A program made the translations under genes and the position numbers. From positions 1 to 34,461 of the IMG/VR virus record IMGVR_UViG_3300031812_000012: a DNA stretch of 34,461 nucleotides. The stretch is one strand, 5' to 3'. The stretch is from a virus. This document shows positions 23,368 through 34,461 of the stretch, piece after piece. A model generated the notes under the pieces. That model made no database searches. It was not told the origin of the DNA and saw nothing but the letters and a program-made list of their open reading frames with translations. Positions within the stretch are counted from its first letter, which is position 1. Each line of letters opens with the position of its first letter.

Positions 23368-23447
23368 TTTCGAAAACTTTTTTATACGCGCGCCTCTTAT
23401 CACAAGGTGCTAGTGCTCTGTTTTAATTTTTCTACATACAGTTTTAT
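23368..23447. other. AT-rich core between opposed iteron clusters; candidate origin
   Basis: This 80-bp segment contains TTTTTCGAAAAC, TTTTTTATAC and TTTTAATTTTTCTAC tracts and is much more AT-rich than its surroundings. Iterons beside an easily melted tract are the classical layout of a replication origin. The phage has its own primase-helicase, so an origin is needed. A divergent promoter region is the alternative. Confidence 0.45.
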
Positions 23448-23539
23448 AACCTGCCAAACCTGCCATAACCTGCCATAAAGCCTAAGAATCAAGGGGTTAC
23501 AAAGAAACACAACCTGCCATAACCTGCCACAACTTGCCA
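23448..23539 (-). repeat. Reverse iteron cluster, six AACCTGCCA units
   Basis: The complement of the forward unit occurs at 23448, 23457, 23467, 23511, 23521 and 23531 (variant AACTTGCCA). Together with the forward cluster it makes a near mirror image, six and six, around the AT-rich core. Confidence 0.8.
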
Positions 23540-23754
23540 TTGCATGGAAATTTGAAAGCAGAATGCGATTTTTTCCACACAGGCTTGAATTTTTAAGGTT
23601 CGATAACGTTAACAGTCAGCACAGACTTGCACTTTCTTCGCGTCTGCCAGCCGCGAAAAGGCGTTTTCGGCTAATACAAGTGCCGCGTTGTATAAGGCGG
23701 CCTGATTTAAAGGCAAAATTTGGGCCTTGAAGGGCCCTTAAACATTTTTCCAAA

Positions 23755-23781
23755 AACCTGCCAAACCTGCCAAACCTGCCA
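23755..23781 (-). repeat. Outlying reverse iterons, three contiguous AACCTGCCA units
   Basis: Three exact 9-bp units at 23755, 23764 and 23773 follow each other without spacers, about 215 bp right of the main cluster. The 9-bp period differs from the 10-11 bp spacing elsewhere. Confidence 0.8.
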
Positions 23782-24421
23782 TGAATGGCTGCCAGAAGCA
23801 TGTTGCTGGCGGTGCCTTGCCGCCTGTAGGCGGTAAGGCTGCACCAAGCGTTGCGATGGCGGGGCCAGGACCTCTATTGGGCCTATCGAGGCACGTTGAC
23901 CGCACTGCGAGAGCAAGTCGCCGCCGCCGCACCACATGTAAGCATGGTCCGTGCCAACAGCATCCTGTAACGAGCTAAAACTTGCCAAAAAAGCGGCTTT
24001 TGCGTTTTGAACGGCCTCGGCGCCCCGCCGGTGCGGCCTGTTTCCGCCAAGAGATTCCTTTCCCGCGCTGTTGTCGGACTTCTTTACGCGGCCGGAGGGA
24101 TTGGGAAGCTTTTCCGACGGTTTTGGGGCTGGTGTCGGCTGGTCTTACACGTTGGGCTCGGAATGTAAAGTCCTCGAGACTGACGACTTTGCGGAGCGCT
24201 GGATTGATCCCAAGCGGACGTTTTATCGGGCTCCAAGCTTGCTAGTAAACCGGTCGACCTGGATCGGCCTTGCGGCGCTGCGCGGGGCCCGCTCCTGGCG
24301 GATGTTAGACGCAAGCATGCTGCCCATTGCGCGCGCTAATCACATGTACCAACACCCTCTGGATCACGCGGGCTAATACACCGAGCGCGATTAGCTGACT
24401 CAATGCGTCGCGGCAGAGCGC

Positions 24422-24444
24422 ATGATTGAAGCAGGCTTAATCAT
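24422..24444. repeat. Imperfect inverted repeat beside the terminator
   Basis: ATGATT(g)AAG and CTTAATCAT form a hairpin with a 4-nt loop and one bulged G. It may be an operator or a processing hairpin; there is no further evidence. Confidence 0.3.
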
Positions 24445-24474
24445 CATGATGCAGCCGGCTAATATATCTTGTGC

Positions 24475-24504
24475 AAAAAGAACCCCCGGCAGTTTTGCCG
24501 GGGG
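24475..24504 (-). terminator. Intrinsic terminator of the MoxR-vWA operon
   Basis: Stem CCCCCGGCA / TGCCGGGGG (24483-24491 and 24496-24504, 9 perfect pairs) has loop GTTT. Read leftward it is followed by TTCTTTTT. It lies 38 bp after the last small gene. This is the clearest terminator in the window and isolates the accessory operon from the late genes. Confidence 0.88.
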
Positions 24505-24542
24505 CGTGCGGGCTTTAATATTGGGGGTAGCCCAACTTGCAG

Positions 24543-24764
24543 CTAACTCAACTTATCGCGCGGGACCACCACGTACGGCTTCGCGAAGGCGTACAGCTCG
24601 TATTCGGCCCCCGCGGTGGGAACGGCGCGGACTCCGGAACAGAAAACAAGGGTAAGCTTGTCTTGAGGAGTTTTCTCCTGTGGACAGATACTAATGTGTT
24701 TTTCACCCAGTCGGATCCTGCGGCTGCACATCGGGCTCTGCGGGGCGAGTCTGTGTACTTTCAT
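24543..24764 (-). CDS. Small paralog E of the five-member family
   Basis: This 73-aa protein is the last gene of the accessory operon. It matches the shared pattern: MKV start; S-x2-I17-x-L19-x4-I24 (block 1, with Ser instead of the Gly of the other four); G44-x10-YEL; nine residues; then VP near the end (KPYVVVPRDKLS). It aligns to paralog D without gaps (shared PQ at 28-29, G44, YEL, KP, VVVP, DK), so D and E are the closest pair. It is probably a small beta-rich domain; no enzyme motif, signal or membrane segment is present. The start overlaps D by ATGA (24761-24764) without a good ribosome-binding site, which suggests translation by re-initiation. The family is unknown to me. Confidence 0.8.
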   Translation of the reverse strand: MKVHRLAPQSPMCSRRIRLGEKHISICPQEKTPQDKLTLVFCSGVRAVPTAGAEYELYAFAKPYVVVPRDKLS

Positions 24765-24988
24765 AGACCAAGAAACTTGTCATGAGGGACCACAACGCGG
24801 GGTTTATCGAAGCACCAGAGCTCGTATTCGTATACCTCTTTGGTGCGTTCAACCTCACCAGACCATAGAATGTTGGTGAGCGTGTTCCAGGATGGAATCC
24901 GCTGCGGTAAAATCCAAACGGCTCCTTTCCACACTTGGATCCGATCTCCTCCGACCGGTTTGTAGGGATCGTGGGGTAGTATTTTCAT
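24761..24988 (-). CDS. Small paralog D of the five-member family
   Basis: This 75-aa protein has the block 1 motif G14-x2-I17-x-V19-x4-V24, then PQ (28-29), G44, a 10-residue gap, YEL, nine residues and VP (KPRVVVPHDKFLGL). The pattern of alternating hydrophobic residues (RIQVWKGAVWIL, LTNILWSG) suggests a small beta sandwich or barrel. It is rich in Trp (5), unlike its sisters, so its surface may bind a partner or ligand. It is ATGA-coupled on both sides. The function is unknown; by operon position it is a likely partner or client of the MoxR-vWA pair. Confidence 0.8.
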   Translation of the reverse strand: MKILPHDPYKPVGGDRIQVWKGAVWILPQRIPSWNTLTNILWSGEVERTKEVYEYELWCFDKPRVVVPHDKFLGL

Positions 24989-25221
24989 GGTTCTTTAAAG
25001 CACTGCGAAGGGACTCGGACGACCATCAATCTCTCCAGTCCGGAAATCAGCGCAAAAGGCCACGCTGACTTAGCTTCCCAAGAGATCCCCTTTTCTGTGA
25101 TAGAACGTGCGCGTGCGGTCCGGCTGTCCCGCGACAGCATGCACCCGACAAAGCATGAGTCGAGAAGCACGTGGGGTCCGGCGAGCACGGCTAATGTAAG
25201 CGTGTGACGTTTGATTTTCAT
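24985..25221 (-). CDS. Small paralog C of the five-member family
   Basis: This 78-aa protein is the most divergent copy but keeps every anchor: MKI start; G15-x2-V-x-L-x4-V (GPHVLLDSCFV); G45-x10-FAL; then VP after 11 residues rather than nine (MVVRVPSQCF). The ATG at 25221 is preferred over longer in-frame starts because it overlaps paralog B as ATGA (25218-25221) and begins MKI like its sisters. It is basic in the middle (RDSRTARARS). No known domain is evident. Confidence 0.78.
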   Translation of the reverse strand: MKIKRHTLTLAVLAGPHVLLDSCFVGCMLSRDSRTARARSITEKGISWEAKSAWPFALISGLERLMVVRVPSQCFKEP

Positions 25222-25445
25222 AGCTGGACGCAAGCCGGGACGCGGGCGACGAGCCTGGGGCAGGCTTCGAGAGCATAAAGAAAATGACGTGTGGATTTCA
25301 TTTTGTGTCCATCTGGGAAAAAACACGACACATTCCGCTGCACCAAACACGCGGGGCGCTCAGAAAAGACTCCATTTGCATCAAGCATAAGCGCGTGACC
25401 ACACATCACGAGCTCAGGATTGCTGCTGTTGATCGTGATTTTCAT
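25218..25445 (-). CDS. Small paralog B of the five-member family
   Basis: This 75-aa protein begins MKITINSSNPELVMCG. It has block 1 G16-x2-L-x-L-x4-V (GHALMLDANGV), then FFPDG46, a 10-residue gap, YAL, nine residues and VP (RVPACVQL). It pairs most closely with paralog A (DG, FAL/YAL, PR, VP, ending VQL/VQVL). It has five cysteines in 75 residues. The start is fixed by the ATGA overlap at 25442-25445; a longer frame upstream lies wholly inside paralog A. Function unknown. Confidence 0.8.
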   Translation of the reverse strand: MKITINSSNPELVMCGHALMLDANGVFSERPACLVQRNVSCFFPDGHKMKSTRHFLYALEACPRLVARVPACVQL

Positions 25446-25660
25446 AGTACCTGGACATCCCTTGGGACCTGGGCTGTCGGTCGCGGATCGAGTGACAGCG
25501 CAAAGGGTACATTTTTTTCGGCTGTCCGCTTCACACCGTCGTGTGAAAAGCAGACCACGACACTCGGAAAGACGATCCCCACCTCGACACCTGTCGGCTC
25601 GAGTGTGATGTCGGAACCGAACATTCGTTCGGTTGGAGGTGAACATTTGAGGAGTTTCAT
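25442..25660 (-). CDS. Small paralog A of the five-member family
   Basis: This 72-aa protein is the first of the small genes, coupled to the vWA gene by ATGA (25657-25660). It shows G15-x2-I-x-L-x4-V (GSDITLEPTGV), FSHDG42, a 10-residue gap, FAL, nine residues and VP (QVPRDVQVL). The middle is strongly strand-like (EVGIVFPSVVVCF). It starts MKL like all its sisters, and the junction CTATGAAA is shared with three of the others. No function is recognised. The direct link to vWA translation suggests matched expression. Confidence 0.8.
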   Translation of the reverse strand: MKLLKCSPPTERMFGSDITLEPTGVEVGIVFPSVVVCFSHDGVKRTAEKNVPFALSLDPRPTAQVPRDVQVL

Positions 25661-26760
25661 AGCTCGATGATCACTTTGGGTGTACCCGCGGGGACTGATT
25701 GTTCTGAGTAATCTCCCACGAGCACGGCTATCCAGGGGACATGGATCTGGTTCAAGACCTCCGGATCCGAGAGCCGGAAGTCGGAAATGACCACGATCGC
25801 GGCCGCATCCCGCACAAGTTGGAGCGCGGGACCGATCCGGGTATCGGACGAGTCGATCGACGGAAGGTCGCGGCCGCGGACTACCGCTGCACCTCCGGCG
25901 AACACGACTACTTCGAGGTCAGCCGCGCGCGCAAGACGATGAGCAAGCCCGTGCAGCGTGGACCAGTGTTTCTGGAGTGAACCAGACACGTCGACTAACA
26001 CAGCTACTTTGATCCGCGGTTCGCGGACCACACCGCGGGTAAGCGGGGTGCGTCCCGGTCGCTTGTAATTGCGGGTGTAACTGAACATCCCCGACCGACC
26101 GGATCGGTACGCACGCTGGGAGAGAACCGCAGCGAGACTGCGAACACGCGCTGCGAGCCCGCGCGGATCGGTTGGGGGGAGCGGCTTCTTAGCCGACTCC
26201 ATCCGCTCGATCTGTTCCCGCGCGCGCTCGACGAATTCACGGTGGACTTTCCGCAGTTCATCGAGCGAGCAGCTTGGATCGTGCCGGAGCTCGTCGGTCT
26301 GATCGGACCGTTGCTGCTGATCGGACTGCTGATCCGAGTGCTGCTGTTGGTCAGACTTACCCCGGCCGATGACCGGGACCAGCTCCGCGCGACTGGGAGT
26401 GTAGTTCTTATCCCAGCCGAACAGATCGAGGGTAATCGGTCTACCCTTCGGTCCGTGCAGGCTTTGGCTAGCGCGGAGCAGCTTTTCGCGCGGTAGGCTG
26501 GCGTTAATGACAGCGTCAGCAACCACGTTGAGTTGCTTGGGTGTGAGCCCGAGTTCGAGCGCGCGGCCGGGGAGACAGTCTCCCGAGAGCGCGTGTTGTA
26601 ACTCGTGCCGGAGAAGCACCACGCGGGTATCCTCCGGCAGTCGGGGATCGAGATTGATTCGATACCCCGACCTGGTCAACTCACAGTAACACTCACCTTG
26701 CTCCCAGGTGAGTCGCACCCCGAGCCGGTCGAGCAAGCGAGACCATTCAGGAGGGATCAT
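25657..26760 (-). CDS. Metallopeptidase-like/vWA fusion protein, MoxR partner
   Basis: This 367-aa protein resembles the DUF2201-type group. Residues 1-120 hold a zincin-like site, H52-E-L-Q-H56, followed by NVVADAVINASL (78-89), whose Asp/Asn residues are typical of this domain. Residues 135-156 are a Ser-Asp-Gln repeat linker. A charged helical region (160-245) follows, then a von Willebrand A domain (248-367) with a complete MIDAS: D257-V-S259-G-S261, T307 and D327. vWA proteins paired with MoxR ATPases bind a target through the metal site and let the ATPase remodel or load it. Both sites look intact. The gene overlaps MoxR by ATGA (26757-26760). It is the likely adaptor between the ATPase and the five small proteins downstream. 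Confidence 0.88.
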   Translation of the reverse strand: MIPPEWSRLLDRLGVRLTWEQGECYCELTRSGYRINLDPRLPEDTRVVLLRHELQHALSGDCLPGRALELGLTPKQLNVVADAVINASLPREKLLRASQSLHGPKGRPITLDLFGWDKNYTPSRAELVPVIGRGKSDQQQHSDQQSDQQQRSDQTDELRHDPSCSLDELRKVHREFVERAREQIERMESAKKPLPPTDPRGLAARVRSLAAVLSQRAYRSGRSGMFSYTRNYKRPGRTPLTRGVVREPRIKVAVLVDVSGSLQKHWSTLHGLAHRLARAADLEVVVFAGGAAVVRGRDLPSIDSSDTRIGPALQLVRDAAAIVVISDFRLSDPEVLNQIHVPWIAVLVGDYSEQSVPAGTPKVIIEL

Positions 26761-27728
26761 TTGTCGCTCCTCCTGGCAGCGTAAGCCCGCGCGACGCGCA
26801 CGCAGGCCTCCTTGAATTTTTCAATGATGACCTCTTCCGGTTCGTCACCGCAGAGCTGGCCTGCAGCGGCGACGGCTTCATATTGCCGGTGCAAAGCCCG
26901 GCTGACGAGATCCGGGTCACCCTCGATGAAGAGGGTGGCTAGCGCCTCAGCCCACTTTTGGGCCGGTCCGTGGACAGCGAGCTCTGGGAGCCGAGCCGCG
27001 GCAACGTCAGCGGTAAGCCCCAGCTCGTCCGATTGGAGCGGATTCTCGCTCAGTTTCGCAAGAATCCAGTCCGCGACGCGCGGACCGCAGATACCGCGGA
27101 TGACTAACTCCGGATCCGCACCGGAGCGGATGAGCCGCAGCGCGCAATCGAGCTGCCGCACGCTGGGTTTTTCGAGGACCGGCGGGGCCGGAGCTACCTC
27201 ATCCTTTGCTAACTCAGCCACCCACGGCAGCCGAGTTAGGTTGGCCAGCCGCTCGTAGCCATCAGCGGCCGAGACCGGAATGAAGATGAGCCGCGCGGCC
27301 AGCGCGCGGAGAGTTTCGTCACTCAGCCAGAGGTCGCGGTCGACGGGCTGCATAGCTCCGATAACAATTGTCTCGGGATGCAGCCGCACACCGCGGACCT
27401 CCAGGTCCCAAATCAGGGTCAGGGTAGCCGCGACCACCTCGGGCCGCGGCTTGTCCAGTTCGTCCAAGAACAGCACGTGCGGCCGTTCCGCAGCAGCCCG
27501 CACCCAGTCGGGGAGAGCCCAGAAGGTCTCCCGCCGGACGACGCGTGGAAGCCCGAGCAGGTCCTCGGGCAGCATGGTCTGGAGCAACAAGGTAATGACC
27601 GGCCGATCAAGCGCGGCCGCGAGTTGCCGGACCCGGGCTGTCTTTCCACAGCCGGTGGGCCCGATGAAGCAGGGTCGTAAATTGTGTGACCCTGCGGTGA
27701 GGGTGACTAACTTCACTAGTGTGTTCAT
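26757..27728 (-). CDS. MoxR-family AAA+ ATPase
   Basis: This 323-aa AAA+ ATPase of the MoxR type has Walker A GPTGCGKT (about 23-30), the family stretch QTMLPEDLLGLPRVV, Walker B VLFLDELDK (about 84-92), sensor 1 IGAMQP (about 122-127; usually N-P in relatives) and a helical lid. MoxR ATPases form hexamers and act as chaperones that insert cofactors or remodel partner complexes together with a vWA protein (for example NorQ/NorD, CbbQ/CbbO, RavA/ViaA). The ATG at 27728 begins at the conserved N-terminus; upstream in-frame starts would include the operator-like repeats. The ribosome-binding site is weak. It is the first gene of a seven-gene ATGA-coupled operon. Confidence 0.9.
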   Translation of the reverse strand: MNTLVKLVTLTAGSHNLRPCFIGPTGCGKTARVRQLAAALDRPVITLLLQTMLPEDLLGLPRVVRRETFWALPDWVRAAAERPHVLFLDELDKPRPEVVAATLTLIWDLEVRGVRLHPETIVIGAMQPVDRDLWLSDETLRALAARLIFIPVSAADGYERLANLTRLPWVAELAKDEVAPAPPVLEKPSVRQLDCALRLIRSGADPELVIRGICGPRVADWILAKLSENPLQSDELGLTADVAAARLPELAVHGPAQKWAEALATLFIEGDPDLVSRALHRQYEAVAAAGQLCGDEPEEVIIEKFKEACVRVARAYAARRSDK

Positions 27729-30018: not shown

Positions 30019-31124
30019 GACCAACGCTTACTGCCAGCCAGACGGGCCTGGCCCTTCTCTGCCCCGGCTCAATACAGATGCGTGCCGAGGCCATGCAGGC
30101 GCGCGCCCTGCCCGAGGCCACGCCTGAGCAGTCCCGCGGGACAGCCATCCACGCCGCCATCGAGGCTCGCTGCCCTGATAAACTGGACAATACGGCTGAC
30201 ACAGAGGCCGTGCGGTGGGCGCTTGAGACCACTCAAGCCATTGTGGGCGATGCCATCGATGGAAAGCTGGAACGCGAAACCCGGGTATACTTCCGGAAAA
30301 CGTCGCAGGGCATCGCGCTTTCCTACGATGCCTCAGACGAAGACCTGTTTTCCGCCAGGCCGGACCTTTGGTGCCGGACTGCAGACGGCATAAAGATCAT
30401 CGACTACAAAACCGGCCGGTCAGATGATCCTTTGTTCTCCTGGTTCGCGCGCGCCCAGATTGTCGCCATGTCCGCATTCTGGTCGGCGGCGACGATGCAG
30501 CCGGCGATCGGCTACCTCCTCTATGTGGACGAGCAGAGGGTTTGGAAAAGAGCCACCTTACATCCTGCGGAGGCGGAGCTGACTGTTGCCCACATCCTGG
30601 CTGCCACGCATCGGACAGATTTCTTCCAACCTGGCCACTGGTGCCAGGCTTGTCCGGGGCGGCATGTCTGCCCACATCGGGCGGCCCTGATTGAGGCTAT
30701 GCCGCCGAAATCGGAATTACCGGCTCAACCTGCGAAAGCGTACGCCAGGCTCCTCCTCATTCGCCGAGTGATTGAGGATATGCTGGAGCAATTACGCCCT
30801 GCCGTAGTTGAAACCAGCGACGAGGACCTTGCGCAAGCCGGGCTGAAGCGCATCAAGAGAAGCCGCGTCGAGTTGGGCAGGCCGACGCCGGAATTCCTGG
30901 CGCGGCTATCCCTCCTCTATGAGCAGGATTGGACCTCGGCCATATCGGTTTCAATGCCTGCGTTGCGTGCGCTTTTCCGCAAGGAGCACAAGGCGCCGGA
31001 CCTCGCTATTGCTCAACTGGCCGAACAGACCGGGGTCGAAGTGAGGATTTCCGAAACCGATGGAATCGAGCTTGATCGGCGCATTCGTCTGCCGATCGAT
31101 CAGTTAGCCAAGGAACAGCCATGA
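30015..31124 (+). CDS. PD-(D/E)XK exonuclease with Cas4/AddB-like Fe-S cysteines
   Basis: This 369-aa nuclease resembles the RecB/Cas4 and DUF2800 groups. Motifs are RGTAIHAAIEAR (H46), RPD with D117, D130-Y-K132 (IIDYKTGR) and a downstream Gln in the FARAQIVAMSAF helix. A cysteine near the N-terminus (C16, LLCPGS) pairs with C210-x2-C213-x5-C219 (WCQACPGRHVC), the four-cysteine pattern that binds a 4Fe-4S cluster in Cas4 and AddB. It is expected to degrade DNA from ends to expose single strands for annealing by the upstream protein. It is coupled by ATGA to both neighbours (30015-30018 and 31121-31124). The C-terminal 130 residues are a helical extension. It is not a CRISPR protein here: no cas1/cas2 or array is present. 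Confidence 0.85.
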   Translation: MRPTLTASQTGLALLCPGSIQMRAEAMQARALPEATPEQSRGTAIHAAIEARCPDKLDNTADTEAVRWALETTQAIVGDAIDGKLERETRVYFRKTSQGIALSYDASDEDLFSARPDLWCRTADGIKIIDYKTGRSDDPLFSWFARAQIVAMSAFWSAATMQPAIGYLLYVDEQRVWKRATLHPAEAELTVAHILAATHRTDFFQPGHWCQACPGRHVCPHRAALIEAMPPKSELPAQPAKAYARLLLIRRVIEDMLEQLRPAVVETSDEDLAQAGLKRIKRSRVELGRPTPEFLARLSLLYEQDWTSAISVSMPALRALFRKEHKAPDLAIAQLAEQTGVEVRISETDGIELDRRIRLPIDQLAKEQP

Positions 31125-32323
31125 AACTGACAATTGAAACCAAGACATTACGAGCGGCGCTATCAGTTGTGGCGCCGGCGGTGCCAAGAATATGCCTTAT
31201 TCCCGCGCTGTTATGCGCGCGCCTCCGGTTGTTGCCGAAGCAAAGCGGCGACCAGGATTATCCGGAAGTACTAGAGATCTGCTGCACAAGCCTGGACGCA
31301 CGCCTTACGGCCGAAATTCCATGCAGGAGCCAAGGCAAGGTGAAACGGGATTTGCTTCTTCCCATGAAGACGACTCTTGCACTTGTCAAGCTGTTCGATC
31401 AGCGGGAAACGGAGATATCCAGGTTAAGCGAAACGGGGATAAACATCGCCGCCGGCGACTGTGAATACTGCCTTCATACTCCAGATCCGGCGGATTTCCC
31501 AGAAGCAATAGGAAGCGCCGATTCGCGTAGCCCAGAGGGCGCGGGAGCTAAACCTAAGCCCGACCTATCCGCAAAATTCACCGGAAACGAACTCGCTGCT
31601 ATGTTGCGCGGGATGCGTTATGCCGCATCGGACGGCTCGGATAATCGATACGTATTAGAGTCCGTTTTGTTCGAATTTAACGATGACTCCTTGCGCCTTG
31701 TATCAACTGACGGCAGGCGCTTAGCGATTATTGAGCGCAAGCTAGATGAACCCGCCAGGGGTGCCGCCCAATACGTGGTTCCCGTGGCCGCCGTGGACCT
31801 GATCACTCGAGCGCTTGCGGCGCAGGCCCGGGAAAGCGGCGCTGTTGAGGTTCGATTAACGAATGATCATATCACAATGACATGCAGCGAGTGCCACAGT
31901 CTCGAAAGCCTTGAGCTCAAGGCCAAGCTCATAGACAGCACATATCCGAATTATCGTCAGGTGATCCAGGGCTTGGAATCAAAGGCACGGGTTAGCGTCG
32001 ATCGAAAGGATTTTCTGCGGGCAGTGCAACGCATTTCATTGATTGCACAGGATCCGTCCGCCTTTGGCATGGTTCTAAGTTTTGATGAGACCATGGTTAT
32101 CCGGTCCGTCGACGGACGCGCAATCGAACGCGTAACGCCCCTGTCGTTCTCTGGGGAAAATCTGGAAGCGCGGCTGAACCCGCGCTACGTGCTAGACTTC
32201 TTGAATGCGGCCGACGATGAAACGATCCACCTGCAAGTTGGCTGGGGCGACCAGCCGATTTGCCTCACTGACGGCGATAATGGCAAAGTCTGTTACATCG
32301 CGCCGATGAGGAGCGTTGGCTGA
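31121..32323 (+). CDS. dnaN: DNA polymerase III beta sliding clamp
   Basis: This 400-aa protein is a bacterial-type beta clamp. It shows the three-domain repeat: MKLTIETKTLRAALSVVAP at the start, the middle domain (LAAMLRGMRYAASDGSDNRYVLESVLFE and LVSTDGRRLAIIE), the third domain (SVDRKDFLRAVQRISLIAQ, MVIRSVDG) and the conserved end VCYIAPMRSVG. Clamps encircle DNA and tether the polymerase. The first domain has extra residues around 35-60 and 115-140 relative to the usual about 370 aa. No phage polymerase is encoded, so the clamp probably serves host Pol III or other phage proteins. It is ATGA-coupled to the exonuclease. Confidence 0.92.
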   Translation: MKLTIETKTLRAALSVVAPAVPRICLIPALLCARLRLLPKQSGDQDYPEVLEICCTSLDARLTAEIPCRSQGKVKRDLLLPMKTTLALVKLFDQRETEISRLSETGINIAAGDCEYCLHTPDPADFPEAIGSADSRSPEGAGAKPKPDLSAKFTGNELAAMLRGMRYAASDGSDNRYVLESVLFEFNDDSLRLVSTDGRRLAIIERKLDEPARGAAQYVVPVAAVDLITRALAAQARESGAVEVRLTNDHITMTCSECHSLESLELKAKLIDSTYPNYRQVIQGLESKARVSVDRKDFLRAVQRISLIAQDPSAFGMVLSFDETMVIRSVDGRAIERVTPLSFSGENLEARLNPRYVLDFLNAADDETIHLQVGWGDQPICLTDGDNGKVCYIAPMRSVG

Positions 32324-33838: not shown

Positions 33839-34461
33839 ATGAAGATTGGTAGCGTCTTTGCTGGTATAGGGGGGTTCGACCTTGCGTTTCAAAGGGCTGG
33901 GTGCTATATCGTTTGGCAAATTGAGATAGATCGCTTTTGCCTAAGGGTGCTAAATGAGAGGTTTCCGGACATCAAAAGGTTCAAAGACATCAGAGGGGTC
34001 AAGGCGGACGATCTTGACCCAGTTGACCTTATTTGCGGAGGATTCCCCTGCCAAGATTTCTCCACAGCGGGCAATCGTAAGGGCTTGGCTGGAAGCCAGT
34101 CAGGATTGTGGTGGGAGTTCCACCGTATTGTGGCTGGGCTCCGTCCCGCCTGGATTGTTGTCGAAAATGTGGTTGGAATGCTGTCGTCGCACAGAGGATG
34201 GGACATGGGTGCCATCCTCCGGTCGCTGGGGGACCTGGGGTATTGGTGGGCCTACCGAGTGCTGGACGCTCAATGGTTCGGATTGCCCCAGCGACGCAAG
34301 AGAGTGTTCATTGTCGGACATATTGGAGATAGGACCGCTCCCGCCAAAGTACTACTTGAGCCCGAAGACTGCCCAAGGAATATTACGGATGGCCGCGATG
34401 AGGAGAACGATCACAAAGCTGCCGGAGCCCTTGCGTCGAGCCTTGCAGGATTTGGCTTCTG
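33839..34461 (+). CDS. DNA (cytosine-5) methyltransferase, N-terminal part (continues at 1-452)
   Basis: The first 207 codons of the C5 methyltransferase lie here, running off the window. Motif I is VFAGIGGFDLAF (6-17), which binds SAM. The catalytic cysteine is C71 in GGFPCQDFS (motif IV). Motif VI is VVENVVGM (107-114) and motif VIII is QRRKRVFIVG (151-160). The last 42 codons repeat the left end of the window and the protein continues there to motifs IX and X. The gene begins 28 bp after rusA with no clear ribosome-binding site. It is the clearest proof that the molecule is circular. Confidence 0.95.
   Translation, partial: MKIGSVFAGIGGFDLAFQRAGCYIVWQIEIDRFCLRVLNERFPDIKRFKDIRGVKADDLDPVDLICGGFPCQDFSTAGNRKGLAGSQSGLWWEFHRIVAGLRPAWIVVENVVGMLSSHRGWDMGAILRSLGDLGYWWAYRVLDAQWFGLPQRRKRVFIVGHIGDRTAPAKVLLEPEDCPRNITDGRDEENDHKAAGALASSLAGFGF
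34335..34461. repeat. Right copy of exact 127-bp terminal repeat
   Basis: This is identical to bases 1-127. One copy should be removed when closing the circle, giving 34,334 bp. Confidence 0.95.

Follow-up and report, generated by a model that had tools for sequence, protein, structure and literature searches.

Tandem paralogous small orphan genes occur in the accessory regions of phage genomes. Pairs of MoxR-like and vWA proteins also recur in phages. For example, N4-like phages carry one (an N4 gp24/gp25-like ATPase with a DUF2201 protein, which are gp33/gp36 in Achromobacter phage JWAlpha). In jumbo phages, the vWA protein of the pair bears an N-terminal metallopeptidase, and a role in virion assembly has been proposed, according to the portion of the published account considered here (PMC7824862).

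The locus described here belongs to the IMG/VR virus record IMGVR_UViG_3300031812_000012, which was analysed over its whole length of 34,461 nucleotides (hereafter, the window). The genome is that of a tailed phage, with genes for a terminase, a lambda-type portal, a ClpP-like head protease, a primase, and a sliding clamp. As in the jumbo-phage pair, a MoxR AAA+ gene and an HExxH/vWA gene are adjacent, here just upstream of an array of five small genes, named A to E in their order of translation. Unlike the jumbo-phage pair, that of this phage lies in a 34 kb genome and is followed by the five putative paralogues, which are absent from the same portion of that account (PMC7824862). The resemblance to N4-like phages also lies in the MoxR/vWA pair, with identities to JWAlpha of about 26% for the MoxR-type ATPase and about 25% for its vWA partner, in a low range of 19–28%. 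In contrast to this phage, JWAlpha has two other small genes between the members of the pair, and nothing in its whole genome matched the array profile. Like other tandem accessory orphans of phages, A–E are short, overlapping, apparently duplicated, and devoid of a known family. Unlike typical ones, they number five and apparently share an operon with a chaperone pair, and their rates of change are unequal along the array. Being on the same apparent transcript, A–E constitute concrete, testable candidate partners for a pair that is recurrent in phages.

The sequence-only reading had described A–E as unrecognised, and they indeed matched nothing in Pfam, PHROGs, NCBIfam, or PDB; no enzyme or membrane-protein family was matched either. 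Searches of 2.9 million viral contigs, using A/B, C, D/E, MoxR, vWA, portal, primase, and clamp as queries, revealed the array in a single sister virus, IMGVR_UViG_3300032356_000153, and nowhere else. In the bacterial genomes scanned, nothing matched the array. Hits obtained in phage records with A, B, D, and E as tblastn queries, up to an E-value of 10, were all at chance level, and no longer or shorter array was found among the viral contigs, phage records, and bacterial genomes. The array profile did not match four primase relatives; it was built from two viruses only, so that distant relatives may escape it.

Table 1. Coordinates of the array, its neighbours, and associated features in the window.
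Feature	Position	Strand	Length	Remarks
MoxR-like AAA+ ATPase	26757..27728	-	323 aa	From ATG at 27728
HExxH + vWA protein	25657..26760	-	367 aa	Directly upstream of A, ATGA overlap
Gene A	25442..25660	-	72 aa	ORF; sister-virus orthologue 99% identical; paralogue of B
Gene B	25218..25445	-	75 aa	ORF from ATG at 25445; ATGA overlap with A; sister-virus orthologue identical in protein
Gene C	24985..25221	-	78 aa	ORF; ATGA overlap with B; orthologue 73% identical; groups with A/B
Gene D	24761..24988	-	75 aa	ORF; ATGA overlap with C; paralogue of E (z 9.6)
Gene E	24543..24764	-	73 aa	ORF; ATGA overlap with D; matches sister-virus D at E-value 1.6e-7
Intrinsic terminator	24482..24505	-		10 bp stem and T tract, about 38 bases past E
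Near-identical A+B tract	25230..25640			5 differences in 441 aligned bases between the two viruses

All five reading frames announced between 24543 and 25660 are present on the minus strand, where translation runs from A, at 25660, down to E, at 24543. The shared features that had been pointed out in the proteins were also retrieved: an MK[ILV] N-terminus in all five, block 1 (G-x2-[ILV]-x-[LV]-x4-[VI]) exact in A–D and with Ser replacing Gly in E, and block 2 (G-x10-[FY]-[AE]-L-x9-VP, with x11 in C) in every protein, its Gly being located at residues 42, 46, 45, 44, and 44 from A to E, within the expected 42–46. The start junction reads CTATGAAA in four of the five genes, the exception being D, with CCATGAAA.

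In the sister virus, all five genes are found in the same order, with frames and overlaps kept. Chance open reading frames can be rejected, as five coupled frames stay open in two viruses. A single protein of five repeats broken up by frameshifts can be rejected as well, every unit having an ATG and a stop codon of its own in the two viruses. The codon usage of A–E is atypical, barely favouring the sense strand over the antisense strand, and the antisense frame of A/B is open, with codon usage no worse than that of the sense frame. A gene coded on the plus strand was rejected because the sense frame is the one in which similarity between the presumed paralogues peaks, for A/B and D/E as well as for each of the four AB–DE pairs. 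Identity at codon positions 1, 2, and 3 is 0.52, 0.52, and 0.37 for A/B and 0.59, 0.60, and 0.44 for D/E, in alignments built on the proteins and therefore biased toward positions 1 and 2.

The identity of the two neighbours relies on family models and motifs. The MoxR gene matches Pfam AAA_5 (E-value 3.4e-14, 53.5 bits against a cut-off of 22) and PHROG 1297 (ATPase, 1.2e-21), and its product has the P-loop GPTGCGKT. Its partner contains HELQH at residues 52–56 and the MIDAS motif DVSGS at 257–261; it matches PHROG 1314 at 1.8e-7 and Pfam VWA_CoxE (PF05762) at 0.003, which is below the cut-off, and is 88% identical in the sister virus. DVSGS aligns with the equivalent motif of JWAlpha gp36 and KSY1 gp028, and HELQH with HEIWH of JWAlpha gp36; no metallopeptidase model matched the protein. 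ATGA overlaps run unbroken from MoxR through E, and an equivalent GC-rich hairpin followed by a T run is found past E in the sister virus. Because of these overlaps and of the terminator, A–E appear to be co-transcribed with the pair, and the natural reading is one apparent operon, MoxR–vWA–A–B–C–D–E–terminator.

Any specific function for A–E is tentative. They look like five specialised binding proteins, some of them fast-evolving. The lack of an enzyme signature, together with apparently coupled synthesis with an unfoldase/chaperone pair, suggests a set of binding proteins made with the MoxR–vWA machine as its adaptors or clients, to which a probability of roughly 0.36 can be given; the adaptor role itself is suggested solely by the co-operonic position. 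Translation would be handed from gene to gene through the ATGA overlaps, and the small subunits would act as alternative adaptors or clients, presenting proteins to the machine. The presented proteins would be remodelled by the AAA+ ring and recognised or cleaved by the HExxH/vWA partner, either in the course of virion assembly or with host proteins as targets. A and B would be the constant members of the set, and C–E the changing ones. A phage-encoded AAA+/metallopeptidase engine for unfolding and cutting, aimed at several proteins by five built-in paralogous adaptors, two constant and three fast-changing, is improbable. The pair does not seem to require A–E-like proteins, since the array profile matched nothing in five other MoxR phages (JWAlpha, KSY1, pVa5, PJN101, and MT835968).

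Comparison of the two viruses indicates how the array evolves. Each array gene is closest to its positional counterpart in the sister virus, in which no sixth copy was detected at an E-value of 1 or below; the duplication of the array predates the split of the two viruses. The two genes upstream of the array show 308 differences over 2070 bases, 207 of them at third positions. A and B are far less divergent than these two genes, also when only third positions are considered (p 2e-15). The flanking genes of the tract differ by 13–17%, and similarity falls sharply just past the end of B. Most simply, the A/B tract would have been recently exchanged, with its edge at a gene border; constraint on the DNA itself is a less likely cause of this near-identity. 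In C, D, and E, 43, 29, and 14 substitutions, respectively, have left the frames open, the chance of meeting no stop being 0.18, 0.29, and 0.63 (jointly about 0.03). These differences are spread almost evenly over the three codon positions, with a third-position share of 41% vs 67% upstream (p 1.4e-5). The dN/dS ratios are 0.37 for C, 0.69 for D, and 0.89 for E, and, compared with neutral simulation, only C has clearly fewer amino-acid changes (p 0.014, vs 0.18 for D and 0.20 for E). This near-neutral change, based on the comparison of two genomes, may reflect relaxed constraint or diversification.

Amino-acid change close to the neutral rate in C–E, as reflected in the third-position share, is also what host-directed inhibitors could display. 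A–E might serve in takeover or counter-defence, each copy blocking a different or changing host target, in line with the diversification against variable host targets suggested by the sequence-only reading, and merely having its transcript in common with MoxR–vWA. Their nature as small tandem orphan proteins agrees with this, as does the apparent swap of the A/B tract as a block. Nevertheless, dN/dS remains below 1 in all three genes, so that positive selection on C–E lacks support, and no known phage or family model was matched. Inhibition of the host is less likely than not, and almost equal in probability to the role of adaptors or clients; the latter rests on the common operon, and the former on the fast change in C–E.

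A–E could alternatively be, as the sequence-only reading also suggested, the five specialised subunits of one assembly, here a hetero-oligomeric one, for example, a minor part of the virion whose formation is assisted by MoxR–vWA. The two viruses have an equal number of copies in an identical order, translation is coupled, lengths and register match, and the array and the portal and head genes share a strand, all of which is consistent with such an assembly. Yet a conserved complex should constrain all five subunits, whereas C–E change in a near-neutral way and A/B are unchanged, and a terminator lies between the array and the portal genes. This explanation is unlikely.

Whatever the function, A–E are very probably an unrecognised family of ancient paralogues that arose by tandem duplication. 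The sequence-only reading proposed a single diverged family. This is supported for A/B together with D/E, and C joins them through A/B, its direct link to D/E being weak. The reading also held that the matching register was hard to explain by chance. Block 2 is found in at most 0.01% of shuffles, whereas block 1 alone is weak in this respect, occurring in 4–9% of them. As the block 2 pattern was picked after inspecting the sequences, its shuffle frequency is not a fair test, and similarity was therefore assessed independently of the motifs.

A/B and D/E are the closer pairs, as anticipated, and are clearly paralogous, with 34% and 36–37% identity (z = 7.6 and 9.6); the similarity of D/E is detectable at the DNA level too. 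Between the groups, identity is 20–30%, and single cross-pairs reach a z of only -0.2 to 2.2. For profile tests, A/B, C, and D/E were grouped together with their orthologues. Global profile alignment against column permutation linked AB to DE (z 6.8, p 0.0002) and AB to C (z 4.2, p 0.0004), with a weaker edge between DE and C (z 2.1, p 0.03). Against rotated or reversed profiles, which preserve local order, every split ranked 1st of about 140 with anchored ends, and the true register ranked 2nd to 8th of about 140 with free ends. Real segments from the phage's own proteins gave p 0.0015–0.07 for most links and a null result for C vs E (p 0.31). Compared with real small phage proteins (z of mean about 0 and sd about 1), AB–C and AB–DE had z 2.8–5.0; among 44 such proteins, control outliers of z 2.9–4.1 were rare. 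Hhalign returned E-values of 0.0015 (probability 17%) for AB–DE, 0.0017 (15%) for AB–C, and 0.067 (1%) for DE–C, and local hmmsearch of AB vs DE was not significant, the hits falling among decoys. In a tree with very long branches, A, B, and C are separated from D and E with 98/96 support. AlphaFold models of A and E were unusable (pLDDT 38.4 and 39.3).

From these alignments, descent of A–E from one ancestral gene, with C attached via A/B, is highly probable. A rival view, in which true families are limited to A/B and D/E and the patterns that tie in C and cross the groups are due to chance or convergence, would suit the low cross-pair scores, the hmmsearch outcome among decoys, the hhalign probabilities of 17% at most, and the null C vs E comparison, but it is quite improbable, given that the profile tests, rotation nulls, and real-protein nulls concur on AB–DE and AB–C. 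The array illustrates the extent to which tandem copies can diverge while register, order, and translational coupling are retained.

Several observations were made elsewhere in the genome. The 127 bases at either end of the window, 1–127 and 34335–34461, appear identical. Although its record is classed as linear, the contig therefore seems to be either closed into a circle or circularly permuted, with a genome length of about 34,334 bp. The sister contig was opened elsewhere (at about 24040 of the window), and its ends (L001 8723–8747 and L007 1–25) have 25 bases in common, which fits a circular map. At 31121–32323, this 34 kb phage carries a full-length homologue of the DNA polymerase III beta clamp. 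About 1.2 kb between 23324 and 24480 is without a convincing gene, and is possibly a regulatory or origin region. Its array-proximal part, from about 24040 to 24480, contains several copies of GCTAAT/ATTAGC and is 73–98% identical to the sister virus per 60 bases. The stretch 23400–23810 contains short direct repeats of TGGCAGGTT type, whose translated frames read WQVWQVWQV and CQTCQTC.
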